A DNA stretch of 64,000 nt, taken from positions 1,969,501 through 2,033,500 of the forward strand of contig NZ_CP112881.1 in assembly GCF_026409565.1 (NCBI RefSeq). Direction: 5' to 3'. The stretch's first letter is position 1; each line of letters starts with the position of its first letter. This stretch comes from Sneathiella aquimaris (lineage in GTDB: Bacteria; Pseudomonadota; Alphaproteobacteria; Sneathiellales; Sneathiellaceae). Positions 53,063 to 61,508 of the stretch are shown here, piece by piece. Under the pieces are notes generated by a model. It ran no database searches and was not told the DNA's origin. It saw nothing but the letters and a program-made list of their open reading frames with translations. The translations under genes and the position numbers were made by a program.

Positions 53063-54886
53063 ATGTGCGGAATAATCGGTGTCTTGGGCAAAACAGATGT
53101 TGTCCCATCTCTGATCGGTGGCCTTAAACGGCTTGAATATCGGGGATATGACAGTGCGGGCATTGCCGTCCAGACGGGTGGTTTGATGGACCGCCGACGG
53201 GCAGAGGGGAAGCTTGTTAATCTGGAGAAAGTCGTAACTGATGATCCCTTGACCGGGCTTACCGGTATTGGTCACACCCGGTGGGCAACCCATGGGGTTC
53301 CCAATGAAACCAATGCTCACCCGCATATGACACCGCTTGTTGCCCTTGTGCATAACGGGATCATTGAAAATTACCGGGAACTGGCCGCTGAGCTTGAGCC
53401 GCGGGGCTATTCTTTTTCATCAGAAACAGATACGGAAATAGCCGCCTGGGTCATTACCAGTTTTCTGGAGGATGGCAAAACACCTGAAGAAGCCATTGCA
53501 CTGTCTCTTAAAAAATTTCAGGGCGCCTTTTCGCTCGCCGTTATCTTCAAGGGGGAAGATGATCTGATGATTGGCGCCAAGCGTGGCGCCCCTCTTGCCA
53601 TTGGCTGGGGGGATGGCGAAATGTTTTTCGGCTCTGATGCCATGGCGCTTGCACCGCTTACCAGCCGGATTTCCTATCTGGAAGAAGATGACTGGGCGGT
53701 TTTGCGCCGGGAAGGGGCAACCATTTATGATGGAAATGGTGCACAGGTTGATCGGGAAATCAAGCTCACCAAGCTTTCAGGTGCGATGATCGGCAAAGGA
53801 AACCATCGTCATTTCATGATGAAGGAAATAGTCGAGCAGCCGGCGGTGATCGGGGAAACACTGAACGGGTTTTTTAACCCGAAATCACGGACCATCACAT
53901 TGCCTGATCTTCCGTTCAGCTGGACGGACCTGCCAAAAGTAACAATTGTAGCCTGCGGAACGTCCTATTATGCCGCCATGGTTGCCAAATACTGGTTTGA
54001 ACGTCTGGCCCATTTACCGGTTGAAGTGGATATCGCCTCTGAATTCAGGTATCGCAGTATGCCATTACCAGAAGGCGGATTGGCAATGTTTATCTCCCAA
54101 TCGGGAGAAACGGCCGACACGTTGGCAGCATTACGCTATGCCCGGCAACAAGGCCAGCATATTGCCAGTATCATCAATGTTGAAGAAAGCTCGATGGGGC
54201 GCGAGTCGGATTTTGTCTTTCATACCAAAGCAGGGCCAGAAATCGGGGTTGCCTCGACAAAAGCCTTTACCTGCCAGCTGGTGACCCTTGCCTGTATTGC
54301 GATTGATGCTGGTGTGAAGCGGGGTACGTTGTCCGCCGAAGAAGAAGCGCATTTAAGTTCGGCCCTTTCCGAGGTGCCCGCGCGGGCTGCCGAAATTCTG
54401 GATCATGATGGCGCTATTCGTGAGCTTGCCAAAAAAATCTTTGAAGCCAGAGACATTCTCTATATCGGCCGTGGACCCGGTTATCCCATTGCCCTTGAAG
54501 GGGCACTGAAATTAAAGGAACTGTCCTACATCCATGCGGAAGGATACGCGGCGGGAGAGCTGAAACACGGCCCCATCGCGCTGATAGACGAAACCGTTCC
54601 GGTCATCGTGGTTGCACCGACCGATCATTTCTTCGAAAAAACAGCATCGAACATGCAGGAAGTCATGGCGCGAAATGCCCAGGTGATTTTCCTGTCGGAC
54701 GCGGAAGGAATGAAGCAACTGGGCGAACATGCCTTGGGATCGATTGAAATTCCGACGGTGGACCCGTTTGTCACTCCGATCCTGTACGCAATCCCTGTTC
54801 AGATACTCGCCTATCATGTCGCGGTTCTAAAAGGCACCGATGTGGACCAACCCCGCAATCTGGCAAAGTCCGTTACTGTCGAATGA
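53063..54886 (+). CDS. glmS: Glutamine-fructose-6-phosphate aminotransferase GlmS
   Basis: The 607-residue enzyme starts MCGIIGVLG, with Cys2 as glutaminase nucleophile, preceded by AGAGGA. Two SIS sugar-phosphate domains follow (TIVACGTSYYAAMVAK and DILYIGRGPGYPIALEGALKLKE in parts), ending DVDQPRNLAKSVTVE. It makes glucosamine-6-phosphate from fructose-6-phosphate and glutamine. The gene's 3' end is the integration site of the genomic island that follows: the last codons recur at 61468-61494, so the present 3' terminus may be island-supplied, while the reading frame is intact. Confidence 0.97.
   Translation: MCGIIGVLGKTDVVPSLIGGLKRLEYRGYDSAGIAVQTGGLMDRRRAEGKLVNLEKVVTDDPLTGLTGIGHTRWATHGVPNETNAHPHMTPLVALVHNGIIENYRELAAELEPRGYSFSSETDTEIAAWVITSFLEDGKTPEEAIALSLKKFQGAFSLAVIFKGEDDLMIGAKRGAPLAIGWGDGEMFFGSDAMALAPLTSRISYLEEDDWAVLRREGATIYDGNGAQVDREIKLTKLSGAMIGKGNHRHFMMKEIVEQPAVIGETLNGFFNPKSRTITLPDLPFSWTDLPKVTIVACGTSYYAAMVAKYWFERLAHLPVEVDIASEFRYRSMPLPEGGLAMFISQSGETADTLAALRYARQQGQHIASIINVEESSMGRESDFVFHTKAGPEIGVASTKAFTCQLVTLACIAIDAGVKRGTLSAEEEAHLSSALSEVPARAAEILDHDGAIRELAKKIFEARDILYIGRGPGYPIALEGALKLKELSYIHAEGYAAGELKHGPIALIDETVPVIVVAPTDHFFEKTASNMQEVMARNAQVIFLSDAEGMKQLGEHALGSIEIPTVDPFVTPILYAIPVQILAYHVAVLKGTDVDQPRNLAKSVTVE
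54860..54882 (+). repeat. Left attachment site (glmS 3' end)
   Basis: The 17-nt core CTGGCAAAGTCCGTTAC (54860-54876), then one mismatch and GTCGA, occurs in the same orientation at 61468-61490. As in Tn7 and other elements that use glmS, the conserved 3' end serves as target and the gene stays functional after insertion. Confidence 0.8.
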
Positions 54887-54914
54887 TTTGATCGGTGCCG
54901 ATAACGTTCTCCGA

Positions 54915-55508
54915 CAGTAATACCAAGGTCATCATCGGTGAACAGAGGCACCTTTAACCCAATAGAAACAACGTGTTCCTTGTCTTCTGGAAGGTGCTGA
55001 ACGTCGATACGTTCAACGACCTGTGACAGCCATTTTTGTTTTTTACGTTTGTTGAAAGCGTTTAAACGGTCAAAATCAACCACCAGACTTTGCAAATTCA
55101 ACAACCAACCGTCTTCGTTGCTTTGGTGTTTATAGCATATTGAAGCCTGTTCCAACAGTTCCAGTACCGATTGTCGTTCAGTGTTTAGATTGTCAGAAAC
55201 TCGGTCGTAGATACGCTTGGGGGTCTTTCCCATGCGATAATCGGTTTCCACATCAGCCAGTGACGTATCAAGGGTGTCTAACTGTTCTTCAAGATTATGA
55301 ACACGCTTGTGAATTGCAGCACGACGCTTCCTGTAACTGTTGTCGATGCCAAATTGTTCTGACAACTGGTTATGAATTTCTGATGGGTCAGATAAAGTTC
55401 CCATAATCGTATCCCAAACGATTTCATCTGTACGAAGAATGTTTAGGGATTTGATCATGTCGCAACCTCTGCCGCGTTTCCATTTTTGTTTATCCTGCGG
55501 TGGGTTTA
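54915..55508 (-). pseudogene. Truncated serine recombinase, 3' fragment (left inverted copy)
   Basis: This fragment encodes the C-terminal 198 residues of the island recombinase (NPPQDKQKWKRGRG... to DDLGIT), with no catalytic or zinc-ribbon part. It is the minus-strand twin of 60877-61470, with only three mismatches noticed. Its frame runs on through 28 bp into antisense glmS. It is a remnant, not a gene: the 5' side is cut exactly where the repeat ends, 5 bp from the TauE gene. Confidence 0.85.
54915..55508 (-). repeat. 594-bp inverted repeat, left copy
   Basis: It is nearly identical to the reverse complement of 60877-61470 and of equal length. Differences seen by eye change His to Arg, Leu to Ile and Tyr to Asp in the encoded fragment. 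The pair flanks 5.4 kb of cargo and could support inversion by homologous recombination. Confidence 0.88.
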
Positions 55509-55513
55509 TTCGG

Positions 55514-56260
55514 CTAACTCGTAACGAAGAACGCAATTGCCATTAAAATCCCGACAACGACTATTATCCGACGAACCATTTCTTTGGATAACTTTCGTGC
55601 AAGGAGCGCACCAACATACCCACCCACTGTTGCTGAAATCATCATGATCAGTGCCCAGTCCCAATTAATAATCCCTGCTATAGTAAATGTAACTATTGAT
55701 GCAATTGAAAGGATGAACGACAGTAAGTTTTTCAATCCGTTCATCAAGTTAATGTCTTTAAAACCCAAGACCGAAAATAACGACAGCAGAACAATACCTA
55801 AACCGCCGTTAAAATAGCCCCCATATGTTGTTACGATAAGAGATATGGCATTGCTCTTAAATGGTGTGAGAACTCTATTTCGTGGTAAAAGTGCCGTAAT
55901 TTTGTCCCCAAATGCAAACAATGCAGTGGCGAATATCAGAAGATAAGGAACAATGGTTCTGAAAATTTCATTCGGAGTGATGAGGAGTAAAGTCGCACCT
56001 AAAACTCCACCAGCAATCGAGATGAACACTAATGTGAGAAGCGGTTTTAATCCGAAATTTTTCAGCTCTTTCATAAAACCAAAAGTGCCACTGAGGTAAG
56101 CAGGGAAGACAACAACAGCACTCGTGGCATTAGCGGATACTGATGGCAATCCAACATATACCAAAGCAGGAAACGTCAGGAAACTACCTCCTCCTGCAAT
56201 GGAATTTAAGCCGCCTGCTAAGAAAGCCGATAAAATTAATAGTGAGGTTTCAAACATCAA
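55514..56260 (-). CDS. TauE/SafE family membrane exporter
   Basis: The 248-residue protein has about eight hydrophobic helices and the N-terminal family signature AFLAGGLNSIAGGGSFLTFPAL (about 13-34, read in part), repeated in degenerate form as TYGGYFNGGLGIVLL in the second half. Members export sulfite, sulfoacetate or related anions, or are uncharacterised. It is island cargo, divergent from the histidine kinase gene by 164 bp, so the two may share regulation. Its last codon is 5 bp from the inverted repeat. Confidence 0.87.
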   Translation of the reverse strand: MMFETSLLILSAFLAGGLNSIAGGGSFLTFPALVYVGLPSVSANATSAVVVFPAYLSGTFGFMKELKNFGLKPLLTLVFISIAGGVLGATLLLITPNEIFRTIVPYLLIFATALFAFGDKITALLPRNRVLTPFKSNAISLIVTTYGGYFNGGLGIVLLSLFSVLGFKDINLMNGLKNLLSFILSIASIVTFTIAGIINWDWALIMMISATVGGYVGALLARKLSKEMVRRIIVVVGILMAIAFFVTS

Positions 56261-56424: not shown

Positions 56425-57960
56425 ATGAAACACTTTTTAAAACATAAGAATATCGTTTCATGGGTTCTCGTATCGGCAATAGTTCTAAGCATACTTGCAT
56501 ACCGAGACTTCAATTCTATTCGCACTGGACTGAATGCAAAAGCAACATCACTGCATCGGCTTGTTTCGCAACGTGCTGATCAGCATGATGCTCACTTAAC
56601 AGGGTTGTCTGCATTAGCCTCAGCAAATGAAAAACCATTAGAAGGGATGATGTTGAATTTATCGGAGACAATTCGGAAATTCTACTCACGCATTGAACAT
56701 GTTGACCTGATCAAGTTGGACAAAAACAACCCTGAAACAGTTTTTTCAACTCGGTACTCCCATTTAGCACAAGACGATACCCGTGCGATTAATGATGCAG
56801 CCTTTGCGTCTGATGGTCGACTACAGATCATCCCGGCATCAAATGGATACTTTTTAGTCAAGCGTTCTCCCAATTCGGATAATGCAAGATATGGGTTAGC
56901 ACTATTTATCAATGCTGAGAAATTGATAGAGAATGAACTGGATTTCAATTCAAATACACAAATCGACCTAAAAACAAATTCTGGCATGACTGTTTACTCT
57001 GTGGGACAACTTGAAGCCACGAATCGATTTACTCGAAACATTTCCTTTTCAAAGGTATTAGGTAGCAGAAGTCAGCCCTTGACATTAGTTGTTACGCTGC
57101 ATCTGAATGTAACTGACTATATCCGGTGGCAAACAATTCTGCCTGTTATCTTATTCATGGTGTTAGGAATTGTGTTCAGCCAAGCCTTTTTAACACAGCG
57201 ACAAAAAACAAGACTTGCCGAAGAACGAGCATTACTTGGTGAACATGAAGCAAGAATCGCACAAGCATCACGAATAAATGGATTGGGTGAAATGGCTTCT
57301 GGTTTGGCACATGAAATCACTCAACCTTTAACAGCGATCCTTAGTCAAAGTCAGGCAGGAGTTCGTCTAATTGATGCAAGACCGGATGACCTTGAGACTT
57401 TGAAACAGGTGCTTGGAAACATATCCAAGCAAGCGAAAAGAGGCGGAGATATTGTTCAGAGACTTCGAACATGGACCACCCATAGCACTGAAACGATTGA
57501 AACGTTTGACCTGAATTCTGTTGCTGAAGGTATCCGTGATTTAACGAAAGCAGATTTAAAAGAAAAGGGTGTAACGATTGAAACCACACTCCATTCTAAC
57601 CCTTTAATGATTCAGGCAGACCATGTTGCGATTGAACAAGTGATTTTCAATCTATCACGAAATGCAGTAGATGCGATGGAGGGGGTCGAGTCAGGGTATC
57701 TTCATTTATCGACATACATTGATCAACAATACGCAATTTTCATGGTTAAAGATAATGGCAAAGGCATTGATGAAGAGACACTACAGCACCTTTTCGAGCC
57801 ATTTTACACCACCAAAGAAAAGGGTATGGGATTGGGATTATCCCTATGTGAAAACATCATCAACCGATACAACGGACAGATTGAAATTTCAAATAATGAT
57901 GGTGGTGGGGTCACTACACTTGTGAAACTTCCTCTTAAAGACAACGGAACAGGACAATGA
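56425..57960 (+). CDS. Membrane sensor histidine kinase of the island two-component system
   Basis: The 511-residue kinase has a short N-terminal helix (about 11-27), an extracytoplasmic domain of about 200 residues and a second helix (about 232-255). A linker coiled coil leads to the FixL/DctB-type phosphoacceptor helix ASGLAHEITQPLTAI with His296. The ATPase domain has NLSRNAVDAM, DNGKGIDEETL and GMGLGLSLCENI. The external domain shows no family I recognise. The stop overlaps the response regulator start (ATGA). The exported HbpS-like protein encoded next is a candidate ligand or accessory of the external domain; that is inference from gene order. Confidence 0.88.
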   Translation: MKHFLKHKNIVSWVLVSAIVLSILAYRDFNSIRTGLNAKATSLHRLVSQRADQHDAHLTGLSALASANEKPLEGMMLNLSETIRKFYSRIEHVDLIKLDKNNPETVFSTRYSHLAQDDTRAINDAAFASDGRLQIIPASNGYFLVKRSPNSDNARYGLALFINAEKLIENELDFNSNTQIDLKTNSGMTVYSVGQLEATNRFTRNISFSKVLGSRSQPLTLVVTLHLNVTDYIRWQTILPVILFMVLGIVFSQAFLTQRQKTRLAEERALLGEHEARIAQASRINGLGEMASGLAHEITQPLTAILSQSQAGVRLIDARPDDLETLKQVLGNISKQAKRGGDIVQRLRTWTTHSTETIETFDLNSVAEGIRDLTKADLKEKGVTIETTLHSNPLMIQADHVAIEQVIFNLSRNAVDAMEGVESGYLHLSTYIDQQYAIFMVKDNGKGIDEETLQHLFEPFYTTKEKGMGLGLSLCENIINRYNGQIEISNNDGGGVTTLVKLPLKDNGTGQ

Positions 57961-58559
57961 ATACACGGGTCTATCTGGTCGATGATGATGAAGCCGTGCG
58001 TGACGGATTGAGTTTGCTATTACAAACCATTAACTATGATGTTACGACATTTGCGGACCCTATGAAGTTCTTGGATGACCTTCCAACCCTGTCAGCAGGG
58101 TGTATCATCATGGATATTCGAATGCCCATGATTTCAGGTTTGAAAGTGCAAGAAAAACTGGTGGAGGCAAACTGTTCGTATCCTATCATTATTATCAGTG
58201 GTCATGGCGACATCAACGCTTGTCGCAAGGCATTTAAAAACGGTGCCATTGATTTTATCAGCAAACCGATTGATGAACAGGACTTGATTGATGCTATCCA
58301 AAAAAGTGAAGCAGTCCTTCAAAGCGAGAACCAAAAACAAGAAGAAGTAAATGAAGTCATTTCGCTGGTTGAAAAACTTACGCCACGGGAAAAAGAGGTT
58401 CTTGAAATGATCTCGCGCGGATGGACTACTAAAGAGATCGCATCAAGTCTTGACCTCTCTCCACGAACAGTAGAAAGCCATCGTGCAAAAATTGCAGACA
58501 AGATTGGTACAACATCCGTTGCTGAAATGGCACGGATCGTTATTGAGGCCGGTTTATAG
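57957..58559 (+). CDS. FixJ/NarL-type response regulator
   Basis: The 200-residue protein has a receiver domain with D9-D11, phospho-acceptor D53 (IIMDIRMP) and ISKPID, then a LuxR-type helix-turn-helix (LTPREKEVLEMISRGWTTKEIA, about 140-161, read in part) and SPRTVESHRAKI. It should be phosphorylated by the overlapping kinase and bind DNA as a dimer. A perfect 10-bp-arm palindrome begins at its stop codon, in front of the HbpS-like gene, and is the obvious candidate operator. Confidence 0.92.
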   Translation: MNTRVYLVDDDEAVRDGLSLLLQTINYDVTTFADPMKFLDDLPTLSAGCIIMDIRMPMISGLKVQEKLVEANCSYPIIIISGHGDINACRKAFKNGAIDFISKPIDEQDLIDAIQKSEAVLQSENQKQEEVNEVISLVEKLTPREKEVLEMISRGWTTKEIASSLDLSPRTVESHRAKIADKIGTTSVAEMARIVIEAGL

Positions 58560-58580
58560 TATCCGTAGCACTACGGATAC
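58559..58580. promoter_or_regulatory. Perfect palindrome, candidate response-regulator operator
   Basis: Ten-base arms GTATCCGTAG and CTACGGATAC are separated by CA. A further CTACG half-site starts at 58593, 22 bp (two helical turns) after the one at 58571. It lies 82 bp before the HbpS-like start, and no T-run follows, so an operator is likelier than a terminator. Confidence 0.6.
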
Positions 58581-58661
58581 ATAGTCGTTACCCTACGAAT
58601 TACCACACCAACACAAAAGTCATATCTTAATTCCAGAACAACACATCATGGAGTTAAGGTT

Positions 58662-59165
58662 ATGAAAAACATTCGTTCTACATTTGTTAAATTTGGTTTC
58701 GCTGCAATGGGTGCAGCAATGACAACATCTGCAACAGCAGCAGACCTGCCGACTGCACCGTACCTGCCGCTTGAAATGGCACAAAAGGCAGCAAGTGCCG
58801 CGATCAAACAATGTAAAGCCGATGGGTTCAATGTTAGCGTTGCGATTGTTGCACGTTCTGGCGAGACAAAAGTTTTGCTCAAAGCCGATGGCTCTGGTCC
58901 CCACACGGTTGGTAGCAGCACAGGTAAAGCCTTCACATCAGCAAGCATGGGTCGCCCGACAATGGGGCTGGCAAACTTCCTGAAAGATCACCGTGAATTG
59001 GACGGTCTTCGTGACATGGACTCTCGTTTGGTCATTCTCGGCGGCGGACTACCGATTAAAATCAACGGTGCGTTGGTTGGTGGCATTGGTGTCGGTGGCG
59101 CACCGGGTGGCGACAAAGATGAAAAATGCGCACAAGTTGGCTTGGCTGCTATTGGTGCTGAATAA
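58662..59165 (+). CDS. Exported GlcG/HbpS-family (DUF336) protein
   Basis: The 167-residue precursor has a signal peptide (about 1-27, ending TSATAAD). The mature part is a single GlcG/HbpS domain: LPLEMAQKAASAAIKQCKADG, SVAIVARSGETKVLLKADG, STGKAFTSASMG and the Gly-rich loop LGGGLPIKINGALVGGIGVGGAPGG (read in part). In Streptomyces the secreted family member HbpS binds haem and modulates the sensor kinase SenS. Here the gene directly follows a kinase/regulator pair, giving the same three-component content. The haem-binding residues of HbpS cannot be confirmed by eye. Confidence 0.85.
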   Translation: MKNIRSTFVKFGFAAMGAAMTTSATAADLPTAPYLPLEMAQKAASAAIKQCKADGFNVSVAIVARSGETKVLLKADGSGPHTVGSSTGKAFTSASMGRPTMGLANFLKDHRELDGLRDMDSRLVILGGGLPIKINGALVGGIGVGGAPGGDKDEKCAQVGLAAIGAE

Positions 59166-59209
59166 TTAAAATCGGATCGGGGTATGTGAATTGTGAAAGG
59201 AATAAGACT

Positions 59210-59887
59210 ATGTTGAAGAAGTTTGTATATTGCACATTGTTTAGCATTTACCTTCTGTCTGCATCCGACAGCAAGGCACAGACCCCACCGTCTTCCGATG
59301 AAGTCACTCAATATTCACCTTTCTTTAAGGCAGTGATCGAAGGTGATGTTGAAAAGACACAAAAATATATAAGTCAAGGTGACGACCTTGAACAACGAGA
59401 TACGGCTGGTCGTACAGCACTACACATTGCCGCGTATGAGTCTAACGAAGAGATGTTTACACTGCTTGTTCAAGCAGGGAGTAATGTAAATGCATTTGAA
59501 AACGACGAGTATGATGTCGTAACAATAGCCGCAGTAGCAAATGACATTGAAATGTTGGAACTGGCTTTGTCATCAGGCGGTGATGCCAAGAATACAACCA
59601 GCCCATATAAGGGCACGGCATTAATCGCTTCGGCTCACCTTGGTCATGTCAAAGTCGTGGAAATGCTACTGAAAGCGGGTTCAAACATTGACCATGTGAA
59701 CAATCTCGGTTGGACCGCGCTTTTGGAAGCGATCATATTAGGGAACGGAAGCAGCAATTATATTAAGGTTGTCGAACTGCTTATGGCTTTTGGTGCTGAC
59801 AAAGCGATTACTGACAATCAAGGTGTTTTGCCAATTTCACATGCTCGACAAAGAGGTTACACTGAGATCGTTCACTTACTTGAATAA
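59210..59887 (+). CDS. Exported ankyrin-repeat protein
   Basis: The start ATG 59210 follows AAAGGA; a GTG/TTG start at 59186 is less likely. The 225-residue protein has a signal peptide (about 1-24, ending SKAQT) and four to five ankyrin repeats (for example DTAGRTALHIAAYESNEEMF, GTALIASAHLGHVKVVEMLL and LGWTALLEAI). It is probably a periplasmic binding or protective partner. It sits 44 bp behind the HbpS-like gene and ends at a terminator, so the two form one transcript. Confidence 0.85.
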   Translation: MLKKFVYCTLFSIYLLSASDSKAQTPPSSDEVTQYSPFFKAVIEGDVEKTQKYISQGDDLEQRDTAGRTALHIAAYESNEEMFTLLVQAGSNVNAFENDEYDVVTIAAVANDIEMLELALSSGGDAKNTTSPYKGTALIASAHLGHVKVVEMLLKAGSNIDHVNNLGWTALLEAIILGNGSSNYIKVVELLMAFGADKAITDNQGVLPISHARQRGYTEIVHLLE

Positions 59888-59907: not shown

Positions 59908-59929
59908 AAAGCCCAGTATTCTGGGCTTT
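59908..59929 (+). terminator. Rho-independent terminator after the ankyrin gene
   Basis: Arms AAAGCCCAG and CTGGGCTTT enclose TATT. The recombinase start codon follows at once, so the recombinase was either expressed from elsewhere or lost its own promoter. Confidence 0.75.
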
Positions 59930-60876
59930 ATGACAAAAATACTTCACGTTTCATCGGCTATTCAGGAAATGCAAGGAACGTCTTTACAGACCCAAGAAGA
60001 ACTTGGGATCGCAAAGGCGAAAGAACTCGGTTTCGCCTATAAACTTTGGAATGAGGGTGGGCAACCGTCAAGGTTTGAAGACCTTCACAATAGACCAGTT
60101 CTTCGCAAGTTATTGCTTGAAATAGAAGATGGAAAAGTTCACCACCTTTTTGTTTTCAATACTGATCGACTAAGCCGCAACCAGAAAACGTAGGGCGGGA
60201 TACGATGGAAACTCAAAGAAAACAGGGTGAAACTTCATACAGCATCAGGTGCCATTGATTTTTCATCATCAATGGATGAATTGATTATCGGAATTCTGTC
60301 AGAGATCAGCCAGTATGATAATGCGCTTCGTTCTGAAAAAAGCCAAATCGGGAAATTAAAGAAAGTTCAGGCTGGCTGTTGGATGGGTGGACCCGCACCT
60401 TTTGGGTACAAACTTGTTGATGGTATGCTTGAAGAAAACCCAGATGAAAGCAAATGGGTTAAACGTATCTATGAACAATATCTGGATGGGGTACCCAACG
60501 TTAAAATCAAAGCGGAATTGGAAGAAAACGGTGTAATGCCTCGTCGTTAAAAAAGCGTCATGGTCATTAGGTTCTTTGCAAAAAATTCTTCAAAACACAC
60601 TCTATATCGGACGATACACCTACCGTGACAAGAAAATGATAGAGCCGTTGGAATGTCAGTGTCCTGCTTTCATTTCAGAAGCCACATGGAACCGCGCTCA
60701 AGATAAACGTAAGAAAATTCTGAAACGCAAAGGTCAAATCAATAAGACCAAACACTTCTAACTGTTACGGGATTTCATGTACTGTGCACACTGCGGTAGT
60801 TTTATGTCAGCGAGAAAGTGTAATGATGGATGCGAACAGCATTATTACTGCTCCTGTAATGAACGTAATTGGAAGT

Positions 60877-61470
60877 TAAACCCACCGCAGGATAAACAAA
60901 AATGGAAACGCGGCAGAGGTTGCGACATGATCAAATCCCTAAACATTCTTCGTACAGATGAAATCGTTTGGGATACGATTATGGGAACTTTATCTGACCC
61001 ATCAGAAATTCATAACCAGTTGTCAGAACAATTTGGCATCGACAACAGTTACAGGAAGCGTCGTGCTGCAATTCGCAAGCGTGTTCATAATCTTGAAGAA
61101 CAGTTAGACACCATTGATACGTCACTGGCTGATGTGGAAACCGATGATCGCATGGGAAAGACCCCCAAGCGTATCTACGACCGAGTTTCTGACAATCTAA
61201 ACACTGAACGACAATCGGTACTGGAACTGTTGGAACAGGCTTCAATATGCTATAAACACCAAAGTAACGAAGACGGTTGGTTGTTGAATTTGCAAAGTCT
61301 GGTGGTTGATTTTGACCGTTTAAACGCTTTCAACAAACGTAAAAAACAAAAATGGCTGTCACAGGTCGTTGAACGTATCGACGTTCAGCACCTTCCAGAA
61401 GACAAGGAACACGTTGTTTCTATTGGGTTAAAGGTGCCTCTGTTCACCGATGATGACCTTGGTATTACTG
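60877..61470 (+). repeat. 594-bp inverted repeat, right copy
   Basis: This copy is continuous with the zinc-ribbon part of the recombinase, so it is the parental copy; the left one at 54915-55508 is derived. Its outer end overlaps the right attachment core by three bases. Confidence 0.88.
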
Positions 61471-61490
61471 GCAAAGTCCGTTACAGTCGA
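61468..61490 (+). repeat. Right attachment site (glmS terminus copy)
   Basis: The core CTGGCAAAGTCCGTTAC (61468-61484), then A and GTCGA. Read in the glmS frame it gives LAKSVTVE and a TAG stop at 61492-61494. It marks the island/chromosome junction and is likely the original chromosomal glmS end, displaced by integration. Confidence 0.8.
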
Positions 61491-61508
61491 GTAGGGAACG
61501 GGCCTTGA

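Follow-up and report, generated by a model that had tools for sequence, protein, structure and literature searches.

Few proteins of the DUF336 family have a worked-out role, and those named in the accessible part of PMC8153426 are HbpS, PduO and EfgA (published work is cited here by accession, each statement being limited to the accessible part of the paper). In Streptomyces, HbpS interacts with the sensing domain of the kinase SenS and modulates its autophosphorylation, the three genes lie in one orientation as hbpS-senS-senR, and in 2016 only actinobacterial hbpS-like genes were stated to cluster with senS and senR (PMC4991794). Here we describe a locus of Sneathiella aquimaris, found in a stretch of 64,000 nt (contig NZ_CP112881.1, positions 1,969,501 to 2,033,500; the window below), in which a membrane histidine kinase, a FixJ-like response regulator, an operator-like palindrome, an exported DUF336 protein and an exported ankyrin-repeat protein follow one another. 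We consider it somewhat probable, at roughly 0.55, that these elements form a self-contained, horizontally moving two-component cassette with the exported DUF336 protein as its effector. No description of this cassette was found in the literature searched, most subscription papers lying outside its coverage, and the module appears to be real, conserved and undescribed.

Open reading frames and Pfam profiles confirmed the five elements at 56425-59887 in the order given in an earlier note on this DNA (Table 1). The kinase matches HisKA (1e-7) and HATPase_c (1e-23), while the regulator, whose reading frame overlaps that of the kinase by 4 bp, matches Response_reg (8e-27) and GerE (3e-18). The DUF336 protein matches the HbpS-like family PF03928 at 4e-31 (108 bits against a cut-off of 25), and the ankyrin protein matches Ank_2 at 7e-31. 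The signal peptides of the last two proteins are our own reading of the sequence rather than the output of a predictor. The ankyrin reading frame was listed as 59186-59887 with a GTG start; we adopted the ATG given in Table 1, and the protein queries began at 59213.

Relatives were sought across genomes with DUF336 peptides alone, and gene order was compared in the best 80 of 536 confirmed relatives, a sample that leans toward the near subfamily. The earlier note held that its proposal would fall if the linkage of kinase, regulator, DUF336 and, in part, ankyrin genes did not extend beyond the mobile island that carries them in the window. Kinase and regulator genes lie directly upstream of DUF336 in 67 of the 80 loci, far beyond chance, and the linkage extends to another phylum. 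An ankyrin gene lies directly downstream of DUF336 in 40 loci, and the full order of kinase, regulator, DUF336 and ankyrin genes is present in 36. The first three genes stand in this order in 31 further loci, among which 24 show no ankyrin gene in the stretch examined, 5 have one elsewhere in that stretch, and 2 are at contig ends (L032, with an ankyrin gene, and L087). The regulator occurs without the kinase in two loci, L017 at a contig end and L044 split by an insertion, and one locus holds a truncated DUF336-ankyrin pair. At the split locus, from Sulfitobacter brevis (L044:2719-5879), about 2.5 kb of inserted DNA seemingly interrupts the regulator gene.

Other samples gave the same association. 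Among 100 genomes of one family (that of the Litoreibacter genome with locus L043, the centre genome G407 having been picked as a module carrier), the kinase was found at E ≤ 1e-10 in 6 and DUF336 at E ≤ 1e-40 in the same 6, with the proviso that in some genomes not every first-look kinase candidate was scored. The kinase sensor was present in 23 plasmid records, 22 of which carry DUF336 in the same orientation, with the two gene starts at most about 2.3 kb apart; in Rhizobium RCAM05350 matches are fragmented, as in broken genes. The four-gene order also occurs on two Deinococcus plasmids and one Variovorax plasmid, and the order of kinase, regulator and DUF336 in Pantoea and Rhizobium N324. 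Deinococcus actinosclerus and Pseudomonas silvicola show the latter order by annotation only, with a short regulator gene, and Paracoccus denitrificans (L039) carries kinase, regulator, DUF336 and one operator-like site. The spread is patchy: within the genus of the window's organism, a close DUF336 was found in 3 of 24 genomes, the window's own counted and several being incomplete. In a DUF336 tree with 12 of 45 inner branches strongly supported, Halomonas, Alcaligenaceae and Alphaproteobacteria are intermixed, a pattern that would fit horizontal transfer. No DUF336 match was found across 50,697 phage records.

This variety of settings bears on the idea that the genes stand together because one mobile island carries them, with no function behind their linkage. 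The module does sit in an island at a glmS hotspot in the window and is often carried on plasmids, but the same order recurs in varied surroundings and in another phylum, and with gene order conserved outside the island we regard this idea as refuted, its remaining probability being negligible. No neighbour family accounts for more than 4 of the 63 downstream or 4 of the 58 upstream neighbours scanned (from 78 and 75, respectively, after near-duplicates, module members and, for brevity, others were left out; families were tallied as the 25 commonest of 91 and of 88), and ten neighbours of DUF336-only loci share no common theme. The TauE/SafE exporter, presented in the earlier note as carried together with the system, lies inside the island but has TauE counterparts in 2 of the 58 upstream neighbours elsewhere, and for that reason it was dropped as a system part.

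Aligning the spacers between regulator and DUF336 genes revealed a common pattern, TCCGTAGnnCTACGGA, 14-15 bp, CTACGAAT, with the palindrome of the window reading TATCCGTAGCACTACGGATA. The half-site CTACGAAT, absent from the earlier note, lies 14-15 bp from the palindrome in 78 of 80 rows. Sites were scored by their best placement to a maximum of 21, hence with a floor near 11, and all 78 distinct regulator-linked loci scored 15-21, 77 of them at least 17; this count drops the repeats L057 (= L006) and L097 (= L016), and L095, which is without upstream sequence. By comparison, 4 of 1772 control stretches from the same loci reached 15 and none exceeded 16. Among 13 loci without the regulator, nine scored 11-13, which is chance level, and four scored 21. 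The latter are three plasmid DUF336-ankyrin pairs (L011-L013) and a Devosia locus (L071) whose genome has a short kinase remnant close by; seven of the other nine DUF336-only genomes have no such kinase. In some loci the regulator stop codon overlaps the site and may add to the conservation of TAG.

The site is also scarce away from the module. Its exact pattern occurs in 3 of 385 genomes of the class, once each and always ahead of DUF336, and in the 100-genome family it is present in 4 of 6 module genomes and 0 of the 94 others. Ten genomes chosen as module carriers have one site each at 0-1 mismatch in searches that tolerated as many as 3 mismatches and used a single spacing each; the four extra hits all have 3 mismatches, against 29 hits for the reversed-pattern control. 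The window's genome has a single such site. Loci of Deinococcus and Variovorax show a similar palindrome with a half-site, CGAAT or CGGAT, at comparable spacing. A similar site is also kept by a Deinococcus DUF336-ankyrin pair with no adjoining kinase (L164). From this distribution we infer that the regulator targets its own module. As no further target marked by the site can be seen, the functional output is expected to be the exported DUF336 protein, and this part of the earlier note is now strongly implied.

The palindrome could instead be an RNA hairpin element between the regulator and DUF336 genes. It lies between two same-strand genes and folds as a 9-pair hairpin (z -4.6). However, no U-run follows it, and the downstream CTACGAAT is conserved as sequence at its fixed distance. 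The site moreover persists where other genes stand upstream of DUF336 (L011-L013, with a similar one in L164) and falls to chance level in nine of the 13 loci without the regulator, all of which makes an RNA element very improbable. A promoter scan returned 6 sites against 8.2 in shuffles.

Residues 1-287 of the kinase, modelled from an alignment of 59 sequences, gave a predicted structure with a mean predicted local distance difference test score (pLDDT) of 93.8, in which two Cache lobes lie between two transmembrane helices, the helices being placed by hydropathy. Double-Cache sensors are among the best-matching solved structures, such as KinD, crystallised with pyruvate, at Foldseek 5e-7 and Z about 15.5, and rpHK1S-Z16 at Z 16.1. 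H54, H57, Y87, Y142, K146 and R147 are invariant in 59/59 aligned kinases. One might guess at a small and possibly anionic ligand. Although the periplasmic fold is shared with KinD-type kinases, identity to them is 12-15%, and the regulator and target here are different. The earlier note's label of a FixL/FixJ-type system did not hold. The pair resembles FixL/FixJ and TtrS/TtrR in kinase core and regulator family, but its NCBIfam scores fall below each curated cut-off (FixL 150.6 of 850 bits, FixJ 194.1 of 255 bits, TtrS 159 bits, TtrR 161 bits), and its sensor fold and target differ from theirs. Pfam detects no PAS domain in the kinase, and its identity as FixL was rejected on this and the score.

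Among solved structures, HbpS is closest to the DUF336 protein (profile 2.5e-30; Foldseek 5.9e-14). The predicted model reached a pLDDT of 83.5 in one of five models and about 62 in the others, and with one good model of five it was used for family fold only. HbpS residues were mapped onto 94 sequences by our own alignment with the numbering of PMC3754957. The equivalents of K83 and D143 are kept as K89 and D153 in 94/94, but the ExxE iron motifs are not: the core motif E78xxE81 falls on G84 and T87 in the window protein, with glutamate at the first position in 0/94 and at the second in 13/94, and in place of E43xxE46 there is E or D at the first position in 37/94 and E at the second in 0/94. 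H28, whose mutant is monomeric in HbpS (PMC3754957), corresponds to Y34 in 94/94. Conversely, C51 and C156 are invariant in 94/94 and align with A and Y of HbpS. The formaldehyde sensor EfgA shares the fold (Foldseek 1e-8) but is cytoplasmic and modulates translation (PMC8153426), whereas the protein here is exported by our own reading of its sequence. PMC12889525, in its accessible part, concerns DUF3365, not DUF336. The genome encodes another DUF336 paralogue (L002; G000:C1:419804-420208), 33% identical, at which the operator-like site was not found.

These comparisons bear on the earlier note's proposal that the locus is a proteobacterial counterpart of HbpS-SenS-SenR, with the HbpS-like protein as both output and periplasmic sensor partner. 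In one form of this idea, the DUF336 protein would mainly act as a periplasmic accessory sensor docked on the kinase, for haem, iron or redox stress, as well as being the regulator's target. The Streptomyces precedent, the closeness to HbpS and the tight linkage of DUF336 to the pair all speak for it. Yet a double Cache is predicted in the kinase itself, which makes DUF336 unnecessary as a sensor partner; SenS, by contrast, is described as membrane-embedded (accessible part of PMC8396549). A circuit whose regulator controlled nothing but a component of its sensor would lack an output, E46, E78 and H28 of HbpS have no equivalent in the 94 sequences (E81 in 13), and DUF336 stands without an adjoining pair in 10 of 80 loci. 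We therefore hold a main role as accessory sensor to be unlikely. What stands of the counterpart claim is the analogy of an exported protein of the same family beside a two-component pair. What does not is the gene order, here kinase-regulator-DUF336, and seemingly the kinase class: the kinase here combines HisKA with a double Cache, and the kinase at a Streptomyces chartreusis DUF336 locus, the one Streptomyces locus compared and not shown to be SenSR, is of HisKA_3 type. Our reading of the leader as Sec-type contrasts with the Tat signal of HbpS (PMC8153426), and C51 with C156 present and E78xxE81 absent set the two proteins further apart. As the pair here is apparently of another class, the 2016 statement on senS and senR is not contradicted, but it is not only in Actinomycetota that a two-component pair is linked to a DUF336 gene: what appears to be a different kinase-regulator pair is tied to an hbpS-like gene in Proteobacteria and Deinococcota.

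In the cassette reading that we prefer, a small molecule would bind the periplasmic double-Cache domain of the kinase, which would phosphorylate the FixJ-like regulator. The latter, acting as an activator, would bind the palindrome and the downstream half-site and turn on the exported DUF336 protein, plus the ankyrin protein where present. In the periplasm, DUF336 would then probably bind, sequester or transform either the compound that is sensed or something produced by the same stress, helped by the ankyrin protein; DUF336 may also feed back on the kinase, though the model does not depend on it. Taken across phyla, this becomes a "sense-and-sponge" cassette, in which the kinase directly binds a small periplasmic compound and a one-operator regulator fills the periplasm with a capturing or converting DUF336 protein, with or without ankyrin; this extension is tentative. 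If it is true, exported DUF336 proteins, mostly annotated "heme-binding protein" in the records examined, would act as inducible effectors of periplasmic detoxification, encoded next to at least three unrelated two-component classes. The cassette offers a route to what secreted DUF336 proteins do, as the question narrows to the inducer of one promoter in a laboratory strain such as Paracoccus denitrificans.

An oxidative-stress cassette overlaps with this explanation because it names the stress. Here DUF336 would handle haem or iron, and the ankyrin protein would support a partner in the periplasm, in the manner of AnkB with KatB in Pseudomonas aeruginosa. Protection against iron and haem stress is described for HbpS (PMC3754957), and the invariant K89 and D153 correspond to its K83 and D143, both important for iron binding; an ankB-katB pair is described in P. 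aeruginosa, ankB is induced by H2O2 in Burkholderia (PMC2830190), and DUF336-ankyrin pairs also occur in one actinomycete (L154) and in Deinococcus. However, catalases and peroxidases are absent from the 25 commonest neighbour families, 43 of 59 kinase sensor regions contain no cysteine and none contains more than two, and the ExxE iron motifs known from HbpS are lacking. AnkB is likewise an exported, periplasmic ankyrin protein, beside katB, but the ankyrin protein here pairs with DUF336 and the kinase rather than with catalase, and the two are likened by protein class, not by sequence comparison. An oxidative-stress role is thus possible but rather doubtful. As for anti-phage defence, in PADLOC the kinase and DUF336 gave no match and the regulator weak ones, and the ankyrin protein matches the candidate model PDC-M72A (1.8e-22) over its repeats.

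Several observations weigh against the cassette reading. DUF336 has no adjoining pair in the 10 loci mentioned above, of which two lie at contig ends and one has a kinase remnant, and might thus function on its own; 24 of the 67 pair-bearing loci have no ankyrin gene in the stretch examined. Such a kinase is encoded elsewhere in the L055 and L082 genomes, though their DUF336 genes are without the site; the exact site is missing in 2 of the 6 module genomes of the 100-genome family; and the site searches are blind to diverged sites or other spacings. One of the 23 plasmid records, from Leisingera (L010:5463-7609), has the pair without an adjoining DUF336. In Deinococcus KNUC1210, D. aetherius and Variovorax the sensor of the kinase shows no more than partial likeness, and in Pantoea, Pseudomonas silvicola and D. 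actinosclerus it could not be detected; different lineages may thus respond to different signals. The Leisingera pair sits near quinohemoprotein amine dehydrogenase genes, neighbours met once.

DUF336 genes were also seen beside other two-component systems. On the S. chartreusis plasmid (L162:2678-5312) the DUF336 match runs divergently from a pair made up of a HisKA_3 kinase and a NarL-type regulator, on a Vibrio tubiashii plasmid (L165:2673-5387) the gene is divergent from an OmpR-type regulator and kinase, and in Nonomuraea (L154:3840-7201) an ankyrin match comes after a DUF336 match, while a REC/GerE protein is encoded upstream in divergent orientation. The presence of DUF336 beside at least three unrelated classes (FixJ-like, OmpR-type and HisKA_3/NarL-type) argues for a shared inducible function.

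Table 1. Coordinates of the cassette and of the surrounding island in the window
Feature	Position	Strand	Remarks
Membrane histidine kinase	56425..57960	+	transmembrane helix (~7-25), periplasmic double Cache (~26-231), transmembrane helix (~232-250), HisKA/HATPase
FixJ-like response regulator (REC + LuxR/GerE)	57957..58559	+	open reading frame, Pfam, NCBIfam
Operator-like palindrome TATCCGTAGCACTACGGATA	58560..58579	.	sequence, cross-locus alignment
Second conserved half-site CTACGAAT	58593..58600	+	15 bp past palindrome core
Exported DUF336 (PF03928, HbpS-like) protein	58662..59165	+	putative effector; mature from ~residue 27 (own reading)
Exported ankyrin-repeat protein	59210..59887	+	ATG 59210; putative accessory effector
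Left att-like direct repeat	54860..54882	+	glmS 3' end; repeat D1
Inverted partial copy of recombinase 3' part	54902..55508	-	607 nt, ~99%; repeat I1
TauE/SafE exporter	55514..56260	-	PF01925 5e-39; cargo not conserved with module
Serine recombinase gene	59930..61508	+	broken by in-frame stops and a frame change
Right att-like direct repeat	61468..61490	+	repeat D1

Carriage on a mobile island, as the earlier note had it, is borne out by attachment-site-like (att-like) repeats at the glmS end and a broken serine recombinase gene; it is real but incidental to the module. The repeat pair (D1) consists of 23-nt copies of the glmS 3' end, 96% identical, that bracket the module, which is also flanked by the inverted repeat of recombinase sequence. 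The island has a G+C fraction of 0.42 vs 0.475 in the remaining window, and the lowest-G+C 6.6-kb segment of the 64 kb starts at 55401, overlapping the island. The same note placed a terminator after the ankyrin gene; a hairpin is present at 59908-59929, but it is terminator-like in the scan on the minus strand only. The C-terminal part of the recombinase found no match among the plasmids searched. In congener G007 the same four genes lie about 40 bp past glmS, with no recombinase sequence detected there by blastn; in congener G018 the module and glmS are on different contigs, and congener G014 has a recombinase-like remnant at the glmS end. The glmS 3' end in the window (54860-55508, 60877-61490) is an insertion hotspot that holds two recombinase ends in opposite orientation.

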